Source: Okeania sp. KiyG1 (GTDB lineage Bacteria > Cyanobacteriota > Cyanobacteriia > Cyanobacteriales > Microcoleaceae). Taken from it: 64,000 nt of DNA. A model generated the notes under the pieces. It saw only the letters and a program-made list of their open reading frames with translations, was not told the DNA's origin and made no database searches. The translations under genes were made by a program, and so were the position numbers. The DNA lies in NCBI RefSeq assembly GCF_014132355.1, contig NZ_BLZO01000118.1, positions 62,001 to 126,000 of the forward strand, written 5' to 3'. How positions within the stretch are numbered: the stretch's first letter is position 1; each line of letters opens with the position of its first letter. Positions 16,293 to 27,435 of this stretch are shown piece by piece.

Positions 16293-16500
16293 ATCATATC
16301 ATGTCCGGTAGCATCGATATTGTATAGAGAAGGTAAGGAAGAAGGAAGAAGTAGGGGCGATTTCCTAGGTCATGCTCCGCAAACGGGTAATTAGGAGCAT
16401 TCCGGAACGGAAATCGCTCCTACAAGAGAAGGAAAAACTTTATATGGTGCTAGATATTTCCCCAACTTTATACACAAACGATACCAACGGACATGATATC
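16293..16500. mobile_element. MITE related to families C and E
   Basis: Ends ATATCATGTCCGGTAGCATC and CCAACGGACATGATATC are inverted. The interior has a short GGGGCGATTTCC / GGAAATCGCTCC inverted pair (16355-16420). No gene. Confidence 0.55.
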
Positions 16501-17629: not shown

Positions 17630-18987
17630 TTATGAATTCCCTAGTCCTAACAAACCCTCGATCGCATCCACAGCCACCCCAACACCATCTTCTGCTTGTA
17701 GCAGGCGACCCACACTAGCTGCTCGCTCCTGATAAACTGGGTCGAACAACAACTGCTTTAACTCCGCAGCTAGTACAGCAGCAGAATAGCGATCGCGACT
17801 CACTTGCCGACCCACACCTAAGCTCACCACCCGCGCTGCATTATCATAACGGTCAAAATCATCAGGTACTATCAACGTTGGACGACCTGACAACATTGCC
17901 TCCCCAGTAGTACCCACTCCTCCATGATGTACGATCGCCATTGACCGGGGAAAAAGTTCTGAGTGTGGAGCGTAATCAACTGCAATTGTTCCCTCTGGAA
18001 GTAACTCTGACGACACTTGTCCCGCTTCCTTTCCCATCAACAAAACAGCCCTATAACCCAACTCTTTCAAAGCAGTGGCAGCCTCAACGTAAAAGTTACC
18101 GGGAGTCATAACTGCCAATGAACCCAAAGTAAAAATGATGGGAGACTCTCCACTATCTAAAAACTGCATCAATTCTACAGATAAACCCTTTGAGTTTTGT
18201 GGGCGGTAAAAAGGAAAACCTGTAACCACAGTTGAGGACGGCCAATCTAGTTGTGGGGCTGCCAACAACTCTGAAAATAAGGCTAAAACTAAATATGGCG
18301 ATTGCAAATCACTAACTAGAGGATGACAACTGGGTGCTAAACCAAGTTCCTTTCGTAGTTGTCGCCAAGGGGCGAAAAAGAAACGCGATTGCCACTGAAG
18401 ATGCCTTGCCATACCATCTTGCATCCCTGTTACTTGTATTCTTTCGTAATCAGAGAGGGGGGATATTTCCGCTCCAAAGATAACTTTGAAGATCGTAAGC
18501 AGATAAGAAAGAGTAGGGCGAGAGGATACAAGATACCCAAGGGATGCCAATTTTTTCTGCCACCAGAGAACCTGCAAAAGTGAGGGGATGAGTTATTAGT
18601 AAATCTGCTCCGGTGCTTGCTGCCATTAGGTCGGTGTAACTAGCCCGTAAATGCGGCATTAACATATAACAGACAACGTACTCGATCGCTCGCCCTTGGG
18701 ACACCATCAGACTCAGAAATTCCCCATCTCTTTCAAAATTTGGCAAACTATCTGGTCTGACTGGATAAAATTCAATACCTTGAGCTTCCACTTGTTGACG
18801 GTATCTCTCGCTAGTGGCGATCAAGGGTAAATGACCTCGTTTTTTTTAAACCTTGAGCGATCGCTAGATAAGGATATAAGTCACCCAAGGAACCGAAGGT
18901 AGTCAGCACAATGCGCTTACTGTTGGTTGTTTGGGACTGCGTGAAGCCTATGTTTGCTTGGGAATTGAGTTCTGTTTTGTAATTCAT
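17630..18987 (-). pseudogene. Family 1 glycosyltransferase (UGT/MGT type), two frameshifts
   Basis: From ATG 18987 the N-terminal strand reads KRIVLTTFGSLGDLYPYLAI. A shift at an 8-base T run (about 18842) leads to IATSERYRQQVEAQGIEFYP and IPWVSCILSPYSFLSAY. A second shift at a G6 run (about 18458) leads to RQLRKELGLAP, the donor-binding region ITLGSLAVMTP-type stretch (IIFTLGSLAVMTPG) and VHHGGVGTTGEAMLSGRP, the HxGG(x)GT motif. Ends ...EGLLGLGNS at 17632. Intact homologues are about 420-440 residues and transfer a UDP-hexose to a lipid, sterol or polyketide. Acceptor unknown. Either pseudogene or assembly indels. Confidence 0.8.
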
Positions 18988-19188: not shown

Positions 19189-19302
19189 TATCATGTCCGG
19201 ATAATTAGTGACAAAAAAACTTTCTCCCTTTAAACCTTTCTTTCCCTTATGCCTTCTGCCTTCCTTCGTCCTAAGTGTAACTATTCAACCGGACATGATA
19301 TT
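19189..19302. mobile_element. Family C MITE (copy C1)
   Basis: TATCATGTCCGGATAATTAG at the left, AACCGGACATGATA at the right. Ends at the stop codon of the SCP2-like gene. A near copy (C2, 19903-20032) lies on the other side of that gene. Confidence 0.7.
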
Positions 19303-19858
19303 AGTCATCTACCAGATACGGTTTGACCTCAATCGTCAATACATCTTCTGGTACATTATTGATTAAATAATTGTAAGTAGGTTTCTGTGTTTCGAGGGGT
19401 GATGGTAGGTTGCCAGTAGAAGAAGCAGACCAGGATTGGTCAAACTCCATCCACAATTCCTGCAATTGATGATTAGTAGCACCATCGGCTAAAATTCGTG
19501 TCACCACTTCATATATACCTAATAATTCATCCATATTGTTACGGGCATAAATTTGGCCATTTGCTATCGCTCCATCCATAGTTAATCTACCTGCTACAAT
19601 ATCTCTAAAGGTATGAGAATCGCTACAGAAATCTATTGAGTTTGGTGTTCCTAAATACTCAAAGTTAAGTTGAAGGCGATCGCCCCCCTGGGCACTTACT
19701 TGTAATATAGTACCATCAATAGCAATCGTCGCAGTTTTTTCAGACACAATATGCACCAAATTTTTCCATGTTTCCCCACCCTGGAGGCGAAGAGTTTCTA
19801 TCAAGCAGCGTAACCATGTGGCTAATTGTTCCTGACGTTTTGTGGTAGTATTTGTCAT
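19301..19858 (-). CDS. Hypothetical protein, SCP2-like sterol/lipid carrier fold suggested
   Basis: 185 residues, no signal or membrane segment. The middle part (VQGGDRLQLNFEYLG-like strand, TFRDIVAGRLTMDGAIANGQ, YARNNMDELLGIYEVVTRIL) resembles an SCP2-type domain, where a G-x-L/M-x2-x2-A turn and a final helix line a lipid cavity. The resemblance is by eye and weak. The protein ends EVKPYLVDD right at the end of a MITE. Both sides carry family C MITEs in the same orientation. Regulation unknown. Confidence 0.45.
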   Translation of the reverse strand: MTNTTTKRQEQLATWLRCLIETLRLQGGETWKNLVHIVSEKTATIAIDGTILQVSAQGGDRLQLNFEYLGTPNSIDFCSDSHTFRDIVAGRLTMDGAIANGQIYARNNMDELLGIYEVVTRILADGATNHQLQELWMEFDQSWSASSTGNLPSPLETQKPTYNYLINNVPEDVLTIEVKPYLVDD

Positions 19859-19902: not shown

Positions 19903-20032
19903 ATATCATGTCCGGATAATAGCGTGATAAAAAACCATTACTCTTGAAACCTTTCTTTCCCTTCTGCCTTTTGCCCTCAGCATAGCTGCCTTCCTTCCTC
20001 CAAAGTGTAACTATTCAACCGGACATGATATA
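19903..20032. mobile_element. Family C MITE (copy C2)
   Basis: ATATCATGTCCGGATAATAG at the left and CAACCGGACATGATAT at the right. Shares most of its interior (CCTTTCTTTCCCTTCTGCC, AAGTGTAACTATTCAACC) with C1. Confidence 0.75.
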
Positions 20033-20252
20033 ACTGCTTCACAAAACTGATACAAAGCGTCACAAAAAAATTACGAATTGGTGTATACAACTTGTCTCTT
20101 GGTCAACATTCCCTCTGTTAGTCTCATGGATATGGCGAAGAGACCTGCTCTTGACAGAGCCACTCCGCAAAAATGTGTCTCGGTATTGACACTGAGCTTT
20201 TCTGAAGTTATGCTGAAAACTGTAAACTTTTCCACAACTCATCTCATCAGAT

Positions 20253-21632
20253 ATGAAACGAATATTACCTTGGGTGATGTCAGTGCTACTGGCATTTACC
20301 TTTTTGAATATCAGTCCTTCATCAGCGATCGCTGCCGATAATATAGTAGTCAATGGCAGCTTTGAAACACCCGAAGTCGAATTTGTCGATTTCAAACGTT
20401 CAATTGAAGGGTGGGATTTATCTGATGGACTGGCAATTGAAATTGATAGTAAATGGGTAAGCAAGCCCTTTGAGGGGTCACAGCTTGTGGAAATGGACAG
20501 TTATAGTGTGACTGGAATTTATCAGGATATTCCCACTGAAGCGGGTAAGACCTATAAACTTACCTTTGCATTTAAGGGTAACCCTGACACTCCTGAGAGC
20601 AAGCTGAATGTAGGTTGGGGAGATAGCATAGTTGCCAATCTCAGTAAAACAGCAGCGGATACTGAATGGGAGACTTATACCTACGAGCTCAAAGCCACTA
20701 GCACCAGCACTCGTCTGAGCTTTGACAATCTTGATGAGATATCAGATGGTATGGGTAGCTATATTGATGCAGTAAGCGTGGTGGAGAAGTCTCTTGCAGT
20801 CATTGGCGAATTTGGCCGTATTTCCAACCTGAACCATGAAATACAAACGGTTAGTCTCAGCCATAACTTTACTGCTCCGGTTGTCTTAGCCTTACCTCCT
20901 TCCTTCCTCGGCTCACACCCTGTAGCAGTACGCTTGAGCAACATCACCAGCAATAGCTTTGATGTCCGACTGCAGGAACCTAGTAATTTTGATGGCACCC
21001 ATACAACAGAAACCCTCAGTTTCATAGTCCTAGAAGCTGGACAATGGAAACTTGATGATGGCACTGTTCTGGAAGTGGGAGTCCATAATACATCAACAAC
21101 CGTTGGTAGGAACTTGGGCAGTAGCAGTTTCGATACAGTGAACTTCAGCAGCGAGTTTGGTGCTTCTCCAGTAGTATTTACAGAGCTACAGACCAGCAAC
21201 GGCCCTGATTTTGTTTACACTCGCCAACAACCAGCCACTACTGATAGCTTCCAAGTGGCCATGCAAGAAGAGGAGATCAAAACTGATGGTCACACTGAGG
21301 AAACCATTGGTTGGTTAGCTATTGAAGCAAGTGATACCGGCAATTGGTCAGGTCATAAGTATCAAGCTCAAATTGTCAGCGGTATTCAGGAAAATTTTGT
21401 CAATATCGGCTTGAGCGGTTATGAGGAAGGGCCACAGTTGATTGCGGCTATCGCCACCTACAACGGTCCAGATAGTGCTGGACTGCGGTATCAAAACTTA
21501 ACTAATAACGGTGTTGAAATCAAAATAGAGGAAGAGACCAGTTTAGATGAAGAAACCGATCACACTACGGAAAATGTCAACATCTTGACGATCGAGGGAA
21601 GTGGGGAACTCCAAGCTGCTCCGGCAAGCTAA
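20253..21632 (+). CDS. Secreted DUF642 protein with C-terminal lectin-like repeats
   Basis: 459 residues. Signal peptide at 1-28 (MKRILPWVMSVLLAFTFLNI, cleavage near SAIAA). Residues 30-178: DUF642-type jelly roll (NGSFETPEVE, GWDL, QLVEMDSYSVTGIYQDIPT, KLNVGWGD, DAVSVVE). Residues 183-455: two repeats of about 130 residues (IGEFGRISNLNHEIQTVSLS, GTHTTETLSFIVLEAGQW, then VGRNLGSSSFD, DGHTEETIGWLAIEA). This repeat is common in exported cyanobacterial proteins and recalls H-type lectin sandwiches. Likely a surface or matrix glycan-binding protein. Its first 30 residues and about 60 bp upstream are almost identical to the gene at 22429, so the two arose by duplication and later acquired different C-termini. 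Confidence 0.8.
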   Translation: MKRILPWVMSVLLAFTFLNISPSSAIAADNIVVNGSFETPEVEFVDFKRSIEGWDLSDGLAIEIDSKWVSKPFEGSQLVEMDSYSVTGIYQDIPTEAGKTYKLTFAFKGNPDTPESKLNVGWGDSIVANLSKTAADTEWETYTYELKATSTSTRLSFDNLDEISDGMGSYIDAVSVVEKSLAVIGEFGRISNLNHEIQTVSLSHNFTAPVVLALPPSFLGSHPVAVRLSNITSNSFDVRLQEPSNFDGTHTTETLSFIVLEAGQWKLDDGTVLEVGVHNTSTTVGRNLGSSSFDTVNFSSEFGASPVVFTELQTSNGPDFVYTRQQPATTDSFQVAMQEEEIKTDGHTEETIGWLAIEASDTGNWSGHKYQAQIVSGIQENFVNIGLSGYEEGPQLIAAIATYNGPDSAGLRYQNLTNNGVEIKIEEETSLDEETDHTTENVNILTIEGSGELQAAPAS

Positions 21633-21649
21633 TTGCTTCCTATACTTTT

Positions 21650-21737
21650 ATTAGCGAGCAATGCTAAAGATGGGGAGGAATATGTAGAACTGGACAGTTT
21701 GGATCAAGTAACTCAAATCTATCAGGATATTCCCACT
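21650..21737 (+). pseudogene. Fragment of a third DUF642 gene
   Basis: About 88 bp (GCAATGCTAAAGATGGGG, then GTAGAACTGGACAGTTTGG, then CAAATCTATCAGGATATTCC) match 22643-22722 of the downstream gene. Sequence then switches abruptly to a tnpB tail at 21738. Confidence 0.75.
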
Positions 21738-22057
21738 GGAAAGCTACATGAGTAAGGCTAGTTTTCGCATCGGAAGATTTCTTACCGACATTTGGTGAAA
21801 AACCCGTTTGCGCAGCATTCCGTAGGAAAAGGTGAGAACCTTCAGGAAAGTGTGTTAACCGTGGCTTGTATCGTTCAGCAGCAGGAATATTAATCAATGC
21901 AGACTGCAATGGTGCAGCTAACATCACTAAAAAAGTAGCGACACAGCTAAGTTTAGACTTAGCCAAGGTCAGTAGGGAAGTTTTGATGCTTCCACAGCAA
22001 TATAAGTTAGATAGTCTAACTAAAAAGTATCGTAAGCAGTGCGTTGCGTGGCAATAG
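21738..22057 (+). pseudogene. tnpB: TnpB C-terminal fragment
   Basis: Reads ESYMSKASFASEDFLPTFGE, then after a break RVNRGLYRSAAGILINADCN and GAANITKK, the C-terminal signature of one TnpB group (last catalytic Asp in INADCNGA). It is interrupted at 21809-21832 by a 24-bp dispersed repeat (GTTTGCGCAGCATTCCGTAG plus GAAA). Directly fused to the DUF642 fragment. Confidence 0.7.
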
Positions 22058-22086
22058 CGCCCGCACCCATCACATCTGCTTAGAAT

Positions 22087-22107
22087 CCAGGGTGTTTTAA
22101 CCCCTGG
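22087..22107. other. IS605-type right-end hairpin
   Basis: CCAGGG-TGTTTTAA-CCCCTGG stem-loop 30 bp after the tnpB fragment, followed by GAGACATCAATTA. The same hairpin occurs inverted at 25148-25168. Confidence 0.55.
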
Positions 22108-22428
22108 AGACATCAATTAGGCAGAATACTACTTGAATTATCAATTGTCCATTCCTAGAAAGCACAATCTCTTCCCCTTCTAGAGAAAAGCGATCGCCAT
22201 TCTTAAGTGCCGCAGTGGCGATCGCTTCTGGCCTCAAGTCCAATTTCTAAAACTCAGCCGCTCTCTACTTCAGTCGAATTTGACAGGTTGATAGGGGTTA
22301 ATTTTTTTGTCTAAAATTACTGCTACAGGGACAACATAGTGAAAAAAAATGTGTATCGGTATTGACACTTAGCTTTTCTGAAGTTACGCTGGAAACTGAA
22401 AACTGTTCGACAACTCATCTCATCAACT

Positions 22429-23931
22429 ATGAAACGAATATTACCTTGGGTGATGTCAGTGCTACTGGCATTTACCTGCTTGAATATCAGTCCATCATCG
22501 GCCGCTGCCGAGAACTTAGTATTGAATGGCAGCTTTGAAGATCCAGCGATCGACACAGTACTAACTTACGAAACTTCATTTAATGGCTGGAAACTGTCCA
22601 AGGGTTTCTTGATGGAAATAGACCGCGATATCTTCTATGGAGCAAGCAATGCCAAAGATGGGAAACAATATGTGGAACTGGACAGTTTCAATCAAGTAAC
22701 TCAAATCTATCAGGATGTTCCCACTGAGGCAGGTAAGACTTACAAATTAACCTTTGGATTCAGCCCCCGTCCAGAAAACCCAGAAAACAAGCTGAATGTC
22801 CATTGGGGAAATACCACTATTGCTAAACTGGAGGCAAATGGGGAAGGTTTATCTAAAAGCGATTGGCAGGATTATAGCTATGGCGTTAAAGCTACAGGCA
22901 CTGAAACTCGTATTAGCTTTGATAATCTCAACGAGACACCTGATGGTCTTGGTTCCTTAATTGACGCGATTGGCCTAGAAATTCTAAATTGTGATTTGGG
23001 GGATGATGATTGTACGATTATCATTCCTCCCGATGGAACATTTGTGATGCCAGTCACTATTCCGATTCCAGAAGATGCAGGGGTACTGCCTGTGGATTTA
23101 ATCCTCACCCAAGACTTGACCAGTTCCTTCTCAGATGATTTGCCAACTCTCAAGACAGTGATTCCTGACTTAGTGACAGAATTGAAAGCTGTCCAACCCG
23201 ATACAAACTTCGGTCTGGCAAGTTTCGCAGACAAGAAGATTTATGGAACTCCTGATTATTATGTGTACAAGACGGAGTTGCCTCTGACGAGCGACAGTAG
23301 TGTATTTGAGGACGCAGTTGCAGGGTTAGCCACTCTTGGAGGAGGAAAGGACTTCCCCGAGTCATCCTTGTCAGCTCTGATGCAAGTTGCTTTACGGACA
23401 GATGGCGAGTTGGAATTCCGAGATGAGACTCGTCGGATTGCTATTATCTCTACAGATGATGCTTATAAAAAAGCAGGGGATTATCCACAAGGTACGCCAA
23501 ACAATGGAGATACAGTTCTCGATGAGGCAGAAGACTATCCTTCTGTGGCTCAGACGAAGGACGCAATCAATAATGCTAATATCCTTCCCATATTCCTAGT
23601 AACCAGACCTTTCATATCCACCTATAATAACTTGGTGAGTCAGTTAGGGGTAGGAGCTGTAGTCGAACTGCAGCCTGACAGTTCAAATTTGGTTGAAGCT
23701 GTACTGGAAGCAATAGAGATATTAAACCAAACTGTGACTGTTGTGGCCGTAGATGATGATTACGGTTATGTGCAAAGCATCGATCCGGACTACTTTGAAA
23801 ATGTTGTTCCTGGCTCGGAATTAATAACCTATGTCACCTTCAAAGATACTGGACTAGGTAGCGGAGATGATGTGACAATTCGCGCTCTAGGAATTGGCGA
23901 TCTAGTTGTTGATGTTAAAGTCCCTTTGTAA
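22429..23931 (+). CDS. Secreted DUF642 protein with integrin-beta-like VWA domain
   Basis: 500 residues. Signal peptide 1-26, DUF642 jelly roll 27-185 (VLNGSFEDPAID, QYVELDSFNQVTQIYQDVPT, LIDAIGLE), then a VWA domain from about 220. The MIDAS is D229-x-T231-x-S233 in DLTSSFSDDLPTLKT. Unlike ordinary bacterial VWA domains, it follows the integrin-beta I-like layout: LPVDLILTQDL, NFGLASFADK, DETRRIAIISTDDAYK, a loop ending AEDYPSVAQTKDAINNANI, LPIFLVT and LVEAVLEAIEIL. After the VWA comes a beta-sandwich (about 425-500). Probably a metal-dependent adhesion or matrix protein. Paralogue of the gene at 20253. Confidence 0.85.
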   Translation: MKRILPWVMSVLLAFTCLNISPSSAAAENLVLNGSFEDPAIDTVLTYETSFNGWKLSKGFLMEIDRDIFYGASNAKDGKQYVELDSFNQVTQIYQDVPTEAGKTYKLTFGFSPRPENPENKLNVHWGNTTIAKLEANGEGLSKSDWQDYSYGVKATGTETRISFDNLNETPDGLGSLIDAIGLEILNCDLGDDDCTIIIPPDGTFVMPVTIPIPEDAGVLPVDLILTQDLTSSFSDDLPTLKTVIPDLVTELKAVQPDTNFGLASFADKKIYGTPDYYVYKTELPLTSDSSVFEDAVAGLATLGGGKDFPESSLSALMQVALRTDGELEFRDETRRIAIISTDDAYKKAGDYPQGTPNNGDTVLDEAEDYPSVAQTKDAINNANILPIFLVTRPFISTYNNLVSQLGVGAVVELQPDSSNLVEAVLEAIEILNQTVTVVAVDDDYGYVQSIDPDYFENVVPGSELITYVTFKDTGLGSGDDVTIRALGIGDLVVDVKVPL

Positions 23932-24188
23932 TCTCTATCCGTTGAGCGATGGCGGAGCGTGACCAACGGTTGGGTAAGTTAGGATAAGTTCAGTAGAACG
24001 GAAATTGACTGATGGCCAAATGGCGGTCGCTCTTTTGCCAGAAAGGTTGGGGAAGACAAAAATTCTCAAGGGCGATCGCTTAAAGGAATATCTAACATTA
24101 TGTCAATTTTTGTCCAATTATTCGGTTTCTGTTGTTAGTTCCAGAAAAAAATCAGAAAACCCCACCAACTTTGATGTCGGCAAGGGGT

Positions 24189-24215
24189 CTCCCGTTATAC
24201 ATAAGTTAACGGGAG
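24189..24215. terminator. Strong hairpin CTCCCGTTA...TAACGGGAG
   Basis: Perfect 9-bp stem with a 9-base loop, 250 bp downstream of the DUF642/VWA gene, without a following T run. Could be a terminator-like structure or an IS end. Confidence 0.35.
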
Positions 24216-25073: not shown

Positions 25074-25147
25074 CGAAGTCGATCGCAACATTCATGCAAC
25101 AAAGCCTTATTTCTCAGTAGAAAAAGCCATTAAACTAATTGACATCT

Positions 25148-25168
25148 CCAGGGGTTGAAACACCCTGG
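25148..25168. other. Inverted IS605-type right-end hairpin
   Basis: CCAGGGG-TTGAAACA-CCCTGG, preceded by AATTGACATCT: the reverse complement of the end at 22087-22119. Marks the right end of a minus-strand element whose tnpB cannot be recognised in 25170-25560. Confidence 0.5.
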
Positions 25169-25179
25169 ATTCTGTGGCA

Positions 25180-27144: not shown

Positions 27145-27435
27145 ATGGCAATAAAAAAAATCACTATAACTGCTACATCCAATGGCTATACAGCCAAATA
27201 TTATGAAGGAGGAGTACCCAAAGCCAAAATTTATATCGATGGCCAAGAAATTAACTTCGGCAGCTATAGTTGGGGTATCAATGTGGCCGTATTCGATGAA
27301 GTCACAGGTAAACCACTATTTTGTAACAGATTTGATACTCCCATTGGCAACAGCTACATCTTTGCTGATTTCATCAACAACCTGCCAGAAGGAAAGATAG
27401 TTGCCCTAGCAATCAAAGGCAATCTAGTTCAATAA
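27145..27435 (+). CDS. ILEI/FAM3-type domain protein
   Basis: 96 residues, no signal peptide. The sequence IDGQEINFGSYSWGINVAV, then TGKPLFCNRFDTPIGNSY and LPEGKIVALAIKGN fits the ILEI (interleukin-like EMT inducer) fold, also found in the stem regions of mammalian GnTs and in scattered bacterial proteins, where it is thought to bind carbohydrate. It is shorter than usual at the C-terminus. A poly-A rich start (ATGGCAATAAAAAAAATC) sits 32 bp after a MITE. Followed 160 bp later by the polyprenyl synthase gene on the same strand. Confidence 0.6.
   Translation: MAIKKITITATSNGYTAKYYEGGVPKAKIYIDGQEINFGSYSWGINVAVFDEVTGKPLFCNRFDTPIGNSYIFADFINNLPEGKIVALAIKGNLVQ

Follow-up and report, generated by a model that had tools for sequence, protein, structure and literature searches.

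A 64,000-nucleotide stretch of the Okeania sp. KiyG1 genome (10.98 Mb in 198 contigs; contig NZ_BLZO01000118.1, positions 62,001 to 126,000; hereafter the window, numbered from its first letter) contains a tandem array of DUF642 genes, one of which, gene C (22429..23931; all array features lie on the + strand), encodes a 500-aa bacterial protein with an integrin-beta head module that is genuine and conserved. Integrin-beta-like proteins are already known from a few bacteria, and what is new here is the combination with DUF642, in a tandem array whose leader has undergone gene conversion. Overall, we consider it fairly probable that the locus encodes a secreted, two-ended matrix adhesin within such an array. 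The array includes an upstream paralogue, gene A (20253..21632, 459 aa), and both proteins pass the DUF642 cut-off (PF04862; 35.0 bits for gene A and 40.5 for gene C against 27), as expected from a first-pass annotation of the sequence that had described tandem DUF642 genes with a common leader.

The N-terminus of the gene C protein consists of a signal peptide, recognized by eye, and the DUF642 domain (residues 30-181, 22516..22971; Pfam). The remainder matched the Pfam model Integrin_beta (PF00362) at 101.2 bits against a cut-off of 24.8, whereas generic VWA models scored far lower (VWA 25.4 bits, VWA_4 20.2 bits). A profile match to residues 74-417 of integrin beta-2 indicates that an integrin-beta I-like (beta-I) domain (residues 220-435, 23086..23733; Pfam and alignment) is inserted in an integrin-type hybrid domain, the halves of which were placed by fold and profile matches at about residues 189-219 (22993..23085) and residues 436-500 (23734..23928, the protein end). 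The predicted-fold match reaches residue 500 in 49 of 50 cases among the matches listed. The five motifs quoted in the first-pass annotation (DxTxS, SFADK, TDDAYK, EDYPSV and one more) are all present, as are the DYPS, PIF.VT and DSSN motifs of animal integrin beta; the motif GG.DxPES is by itself not integrin-specific, being found in three generic VWA proteins as well (L023-L025). An ordinary VWA domain is excluded by the Pfam scores, the profile match and the comparison of predicted folds, which matched integrin hybrid/beta-I, so that the earlier integrin-beta reading is borne out by the sequence, the predicted fold and the hybrid domain that flanks the VWA-type domain on both sides. In the alignment, gene C has D229, T231, S233, E311 and D343 at what we take to be the metal ion-dependent adhesion site (MIDAS), and D236 and D237 at the presumed adjacent site (ADMIDAS). 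Four positions of the presumed synergistic metal-binding site (SyMBS) are also kept (D268, D308, P310, E311), and the position of its Asn is Gly306. Contamination with animal DNA was rejected, since two further Okeania assemblies contain orthologues and relatives of the protein are present among other cyanobacteria and alphaproteobacteria. The ratio of non-synonymous to synonymous substitution rates (dN/dS) of the hybrid and beta-I part was 0.21-0.33 for three orthologue pairs (rough values, from few changes), and the integrin-like part is therefore maintained by purifying selection.

Compared to animal integrin beta chains (beta-1, -2, -3, -6, -7 and -8), gene C agrees in the hybrid, beta-I, hybrid order, in the MIDAS and ADMIDAS ligands and in the motifs, but lacks the cysteine-bearing loop, has Gly in place of the SyMBS Asn, and includes no PSI domain, EGF repeats, beta-tail, transmembrane part or cytoplasmic tail, ending at residue 500 after the second hybrid half. 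Among bacterial relatives, a Trichodesmium erythraeum protein (L013/L074), which may or may not be a published one, has a PF00362 domain with hybrid flanks like gene C (43% identity, best segment), but carries cadherin-like and PPC domains and no DUF642. Similarly, integrin-beta-like proteins with a PEP-CTERM end (L012/L073, L016, L019, L020) have the signal peptide and hybrid, beta-I, hybrid order of gene C, but terminate in a sorting signal (by Pfam in L073 only, by eye in the others) and lack DUF642. The Dictyostelium SibA-E family (PF24909, cut-off 27) was matched by two of these relatives (L073, 33.7 bits; L074, 35.1 bits), with gene D, a second DUF642-integrin gene of related arrays, below cut-off at 18.5 bits and no Pfam match listed for gene C. 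Unlike gene C, SibA-E is described in PMC2651865 as an amoebal adhesion receptor with a transmembrane domain. Cyanobacterial integrin-beta-like proteins are named in both PMC3192720 and PMC2651865, a table in the latter listing integrin beta chain-like proteins as present in cyanobacteria, and the former states as open what bacterial integrin pieces do and how they came together. The fusion of DUF642 to an integrin-beta-like domain was not described in the literature searched, subscription papers lying mostly outside that search.

We next considered how widely the domain occurs. PF00362 matched 17 cyanobacteria out of 386 sampled, and 13 of these matches were convincing; G010, G049, G213 and G328 (E above 1e-4) were dropped as generic VWA or false matches. 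It was matched in 8 of 13 members of the genus and family (7 above cut-off; 5 of 6 within the genus) and in none of 14 control genomes; in the class that includes a Brevundimonas genome, 4 of 385 genomes matched, the Brevundimonas one among them. For the tree of these domains, an initial pattern missed those of the Okeania array, and gene C (window and Okeania sp. SIO1I7) and gene D (Okeania sp. SIO2B3) were added; the other array copies, L018, L077 and L103 (no row) and L078 (unscanned) stayed outside, and L068 was dropped as a copy of L009. Among the genes read, the DUF642-integrin-beta fusion was seen in Okeania alone, in genes C and D of the window genome (G000) and of two other marine cyanobacteria, Okeania sp. 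SIO2B3 (G420) and SIO1I7 (G421), with G419 and G422 lying outside that reading. Likewise, a search with the leader plus DUF642 matched 10 of 62 family genomes, and only G000, G420 and G421 had a near copy of gene C (at least 87%). Parts of gene C matched 25 plasmid records, none covering 80% of it among the matches listed, and none of 65 pattern-matched stretches in viral contigs was confirmed.

Outside this fusion, the beta-I domain is found in PEP-CTERM proteins (L012/L073 by Pfam; L016, L019 and L020 by eye), in RTX proteins (L076 and L102 by Pfam; L009 of the window genome, L021, L022, L027, L028 and L075 by eye), and with cadherin-like (L074), FG-GAP (by Pfam) and Calx-beta-like (by eye) partners. 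Such disparate company would suit a generic module, i.e., a cation-stabilised structural spacer with a fold kept for stability, ligand binding being left to DUF642 or the lectin-like part only. However, the ligand residues of MIDAS and ADMIDAS vary little or not at all, the module is under purifying selection, and a mere spacer would not need a vacant MIDAS, all of which makes a spacer unlikely in our view. The RTX integrin-beta-like gene of the window genome adjoins a second RTX protein gene, with a VWA_4 domain (L068:8915-11521).

The second feature of the array is its leader. Genes A and C share a block immediately upstream of their coding sequences (20169..20252 and 22345..22428; sequence repeat comparison), which had previously been given as 60 bp; the sharing stands, and the block is longer, with 92% identity over 158 nt (20169-20326 and 22345-22502) that include 84 nt upstream and most signal-peptide codons. 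In 40-nt windows, identity is 85-95% from about -90 to a window start of +31, then drops to 80, 78, 70 and, at +111, 50%. Array paralogues of one genome are 83-97% identical in signal-peptide codons and 80-91% in positions -100..-1, and 46-63% in DUF642 codons, while DUF642 of orthologues is 90-99% identical. When genes C and D were compared between G420 and G421, the leader (-85..+100) had 3 same-genome informative sites, 0 same-gene and 0 of the third kind, and the gene bodies had 0 same-genome, 319 same-gene (90+229) and 0 of the third kind. The leader sites thus follow the genome and the body sites the gene, i.e., the leader was exchanged between paralogues by gene conversion within genomes, which is demonstrated for the C/D pair only. 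The three same-genome sites, which alone carry this signal, may reflect one or two events, and stronger support comes from the missing same-gene sites: had they been as frequent as in the body (319 in about 1400 nt), the leader should contain some 40, and none was seen. For gene A against C or D, four quartets yielded 8-9 same-gene, 0 same-genome and 0-3 third-kind sites; since same-gene sites dominate, gene A's leader shows no recent conversion. Strong selection on promoter and signal peptide could also keep leaders alike, and such a cause would fit a leader common to all array genes, the small number of informative sites for C/D, and the pattern of gene A. Yet leaders do vary among orthologues (77-94% in -100..-1), the C and D leaders of one genome (91 and 89%) are about as alike as those of D orthologues (89%), and the same-gene sites expected for C/D are absent, so that selection in place of conversion appears quite unlikely. 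Dispersed copies have not been homogenised, their signal peptides being 57-79% identical to those of array genes.

Comparison with relatives also indicates how the array has changed. In G420 its order is A, B, C, D, followed by an ILEI/FG-GAP_2 propeller gene; gene B (347 aa) has two DUF642 domains, a double form limited within the array to this gene, and gene D encodes a second DUF642-integrin protein of 508 aa. G421 has the same order with a decayed B. In the window, gene B is reduced to 86 nt (21653..21738; 95% identity to L061:8097-8182, the second DUF642 domain of the intact gene B of a relative); this is the fragment first reported as an 88-bp third copy, which is indeed present, although it is slightly shorter and derives from the double-DUF642 gene. 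Gene D is absent: the window matches C until about the gene C stop codon and D beyond it (23932..24166, the 3' flank of the lost gene D, fused to gene C), and since this switch falls within a near-identical C/D block, gene D disappeared through homologous deletion. Of the propeller gene, only a truncated start of 96 codons is left (27145..27435; the same gene as downstream of gene D in the two relatives). The array is thus decaying in the window genome. Further genes with a similar leader and DUF642 but other C-termini are dispersed on contig C79 of the window genome, C239 and C204 of G420 (the C204 copy split into two frames) and C40 of G421. In total, six kinds of C-terminus stand behind the same or a similar leader in the window genome and its relatives (weakly lectin-like, a second DUF642, integrin-like, and three that reach no Pfam cut-off), so the shared leader anticipated in relatives was found there. 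The DUF642 bodies of array paralogues are, however, so divergent (46-63% in DNA) that the domain joins must be old, and the three array-bearing genomes showed no case of a recent C-terminal swap. The wording of the first-pass annotation, swapped C-termini in a domain-shuffling cassette, is therefore unsupported in that form: C-termini are not actively shuffled, the exchanged part is the leader (C/D), and the array evolves by duplication, homologous deletion and leader gene conversion.

The propeller gene raises the question of whether the beta-I module pairs with a beta-propeller protein, in the way that the beta head and the alpha propeller of integrins do. The distance from gene D to an FG-GAP_2 gene is 1083 bp in G420 and 2945 bp in G421, and each of these genomes has one further PF14312 gene. 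In G422, another Okeania genome, genes for a PF14312 protein and a DUF642 protein are separated by about 2.6 kb on the same strand (C394:3978-7883), and in the window genome itself DUF642 is fused behind alpha-like FG-GAP_3 propeller repeats (L003 and L007, contig C158; L002, at the end of contig C198, repeats most of the L003 gene). An open reading frame (ORF) of a Brevundimonas metagenome-assembled genome (L076:1366-6585, 1739 aa) combines seven integrin-alpha-type FG-GAP stretches (PF01839, 160.7 bits), RTX repeats and Integrin_beta (129.4 bits) in one chain, in a single 6790-bp contig as assembled. On the other hand, the Okeania propeller (L061:14459-16618, directly after the array; two ILEI stretches and six FG-GAP_2 repeats) shows no obvious signal peptide by eye, and an alignment gap in gene C removes part of a loop that presumably enters the alpha propeller and is longer in Trichodesmium and Brevundimonas. 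FG-GAP genes are also common (PF01839 occurs in 12 of the 19 genomes in question and in 3 of 14 controls), and the window genome retains an open gene C but only a truncated propeller gene. FG-GAP ORFs were found within roughly 20 kb in at least 2 of 15 stretches (L094, seven repeats; L098, one), a lower bound, as the home-made profile missed the FG-GAP_2 protein beside the array. On balance we regard such partner binding as very unlikely, and more doubtful still that bacteria use a working integrin-type head of beta-I/hybrid and FG-GAP propeller, in one chain (Brevundimonas) or from neighbouring genes (Okeania). If true, the alpha-beta head arrangement of animal integrins would already have been assembled, in part, in prokaryotes.

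We return to the matrix adhesin as our preferred explanation. The gene C product would be a secreted, soluble matrix protein with two binding ends: DUF642, perhaps a distant CBM4/9 relative, would tether it to sheath or matrix polysaccharide, and the hybrid and beta-I module would use Mg/Ca at the MIDAS to bind a protein ligand by an acidic side chain, or else a carboxylated sugar. Gene A and the other paralogues may present other binding ends behind a like leader and DUF642 anchor, such that one locus could yield a set of matrix adhesins, altered over time by duplication, homologous deletion and leader conversion. By analogy, the surface adhesion proposed in the first-pass annotation appears sound.

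Several observations weigh against this explanation. All 17 aligned sequences (alignment A1, without L018, L027, L028 and the alphaproteobacterial domains) have Gly where the SyMBS Asn would be, and the third metal site may thus differ. Gene C showed no anchor, PEP-CTERM signal, RTX tail or transmembrane segment, and no Pfam match to a PEP-CTERM sorting signal was listed for either protein. Sequence points only weakly to carbohydrate binding by DUF642: the CBM_4_9 match of gene A (0.014) was under cut-off, and comparisons of DUF642 to xylanase or glycosyl-hydrolase chains (0.03-0.22) were not significant. Selection on DUF642 was loose in some pairs (dN/dS 0.31-1.04 for gene C and 0.26-1.33 for gene A), the C-terminal part of gene A giving 0.28-0.51 (few changes, rough). 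The lectin-like label of gene A is likewise weak, H_lectin (PF09458) scoring 22.4 bits against a cut-off of 24, and 20.6 bits in the L061 orthologue. The decay of the window array points the same way, and cation-dependent adhesion in the extracellular matrix, though likely, is argued by analogy.

For the remaining features, gene A comprises a signal peptide (by eye), DUF642 (about 20349-20780; Pfam) and the weakly H-lectin-like C-terminal part (about 20793-21629; repeats by eye); its AlphaFold2 model (pLDDT 38.8) was not used. The two proteins scored 69.1 and 53.6 bits, under the cut-off of 120, with choice_anch_C (TIGR04362). A promoter-like TTGACA-N17-TATGCT lies ahead of gene A (20186-20214, pattern match) but is unsupported, with 8 such matches in 20000-24200 vs a mean of 7.6 in shuffles. 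Between genes B and C is a probable IS200/IS605 remnant (21740..22120), named by eye from a TnpB-like peptide, with a 39-nt end repeated inverted at 25135-25173; a Pfam scan of 21866-22054 gave no match. Upstream, noncoding ATATCATGTCCGG-type ends recur at 16296-16341, 16466-16499, 19279-19310 and 19986-20040, perhaps small transposable elements (named by eye), and a UDPGT/EryCIII-like glycosyltransferase gene (17630-18987, - strand) is apparently broken into pieces, a 451-aa ORF in L066 of a relative apparently being the same gene.

DUF642 itself is shared with plant cell-wall proteins of the same Pfam family, which have a pair of DUF642-like domains and are not known to contain a VWA. Animal cells adhere through integrins, the domains of which are believed to go back to bacteria. 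Gene C offers a small hybrid/beta-I protein, probably soluble and with most metal ligands intact, that suits direct structural and binding work, with gene D and the orthologues as natural comparisons. At the same time, the locus exemplifies an array in bacteria where gene conversion has homogenised the leader of two paralogues while functional ends still differ.

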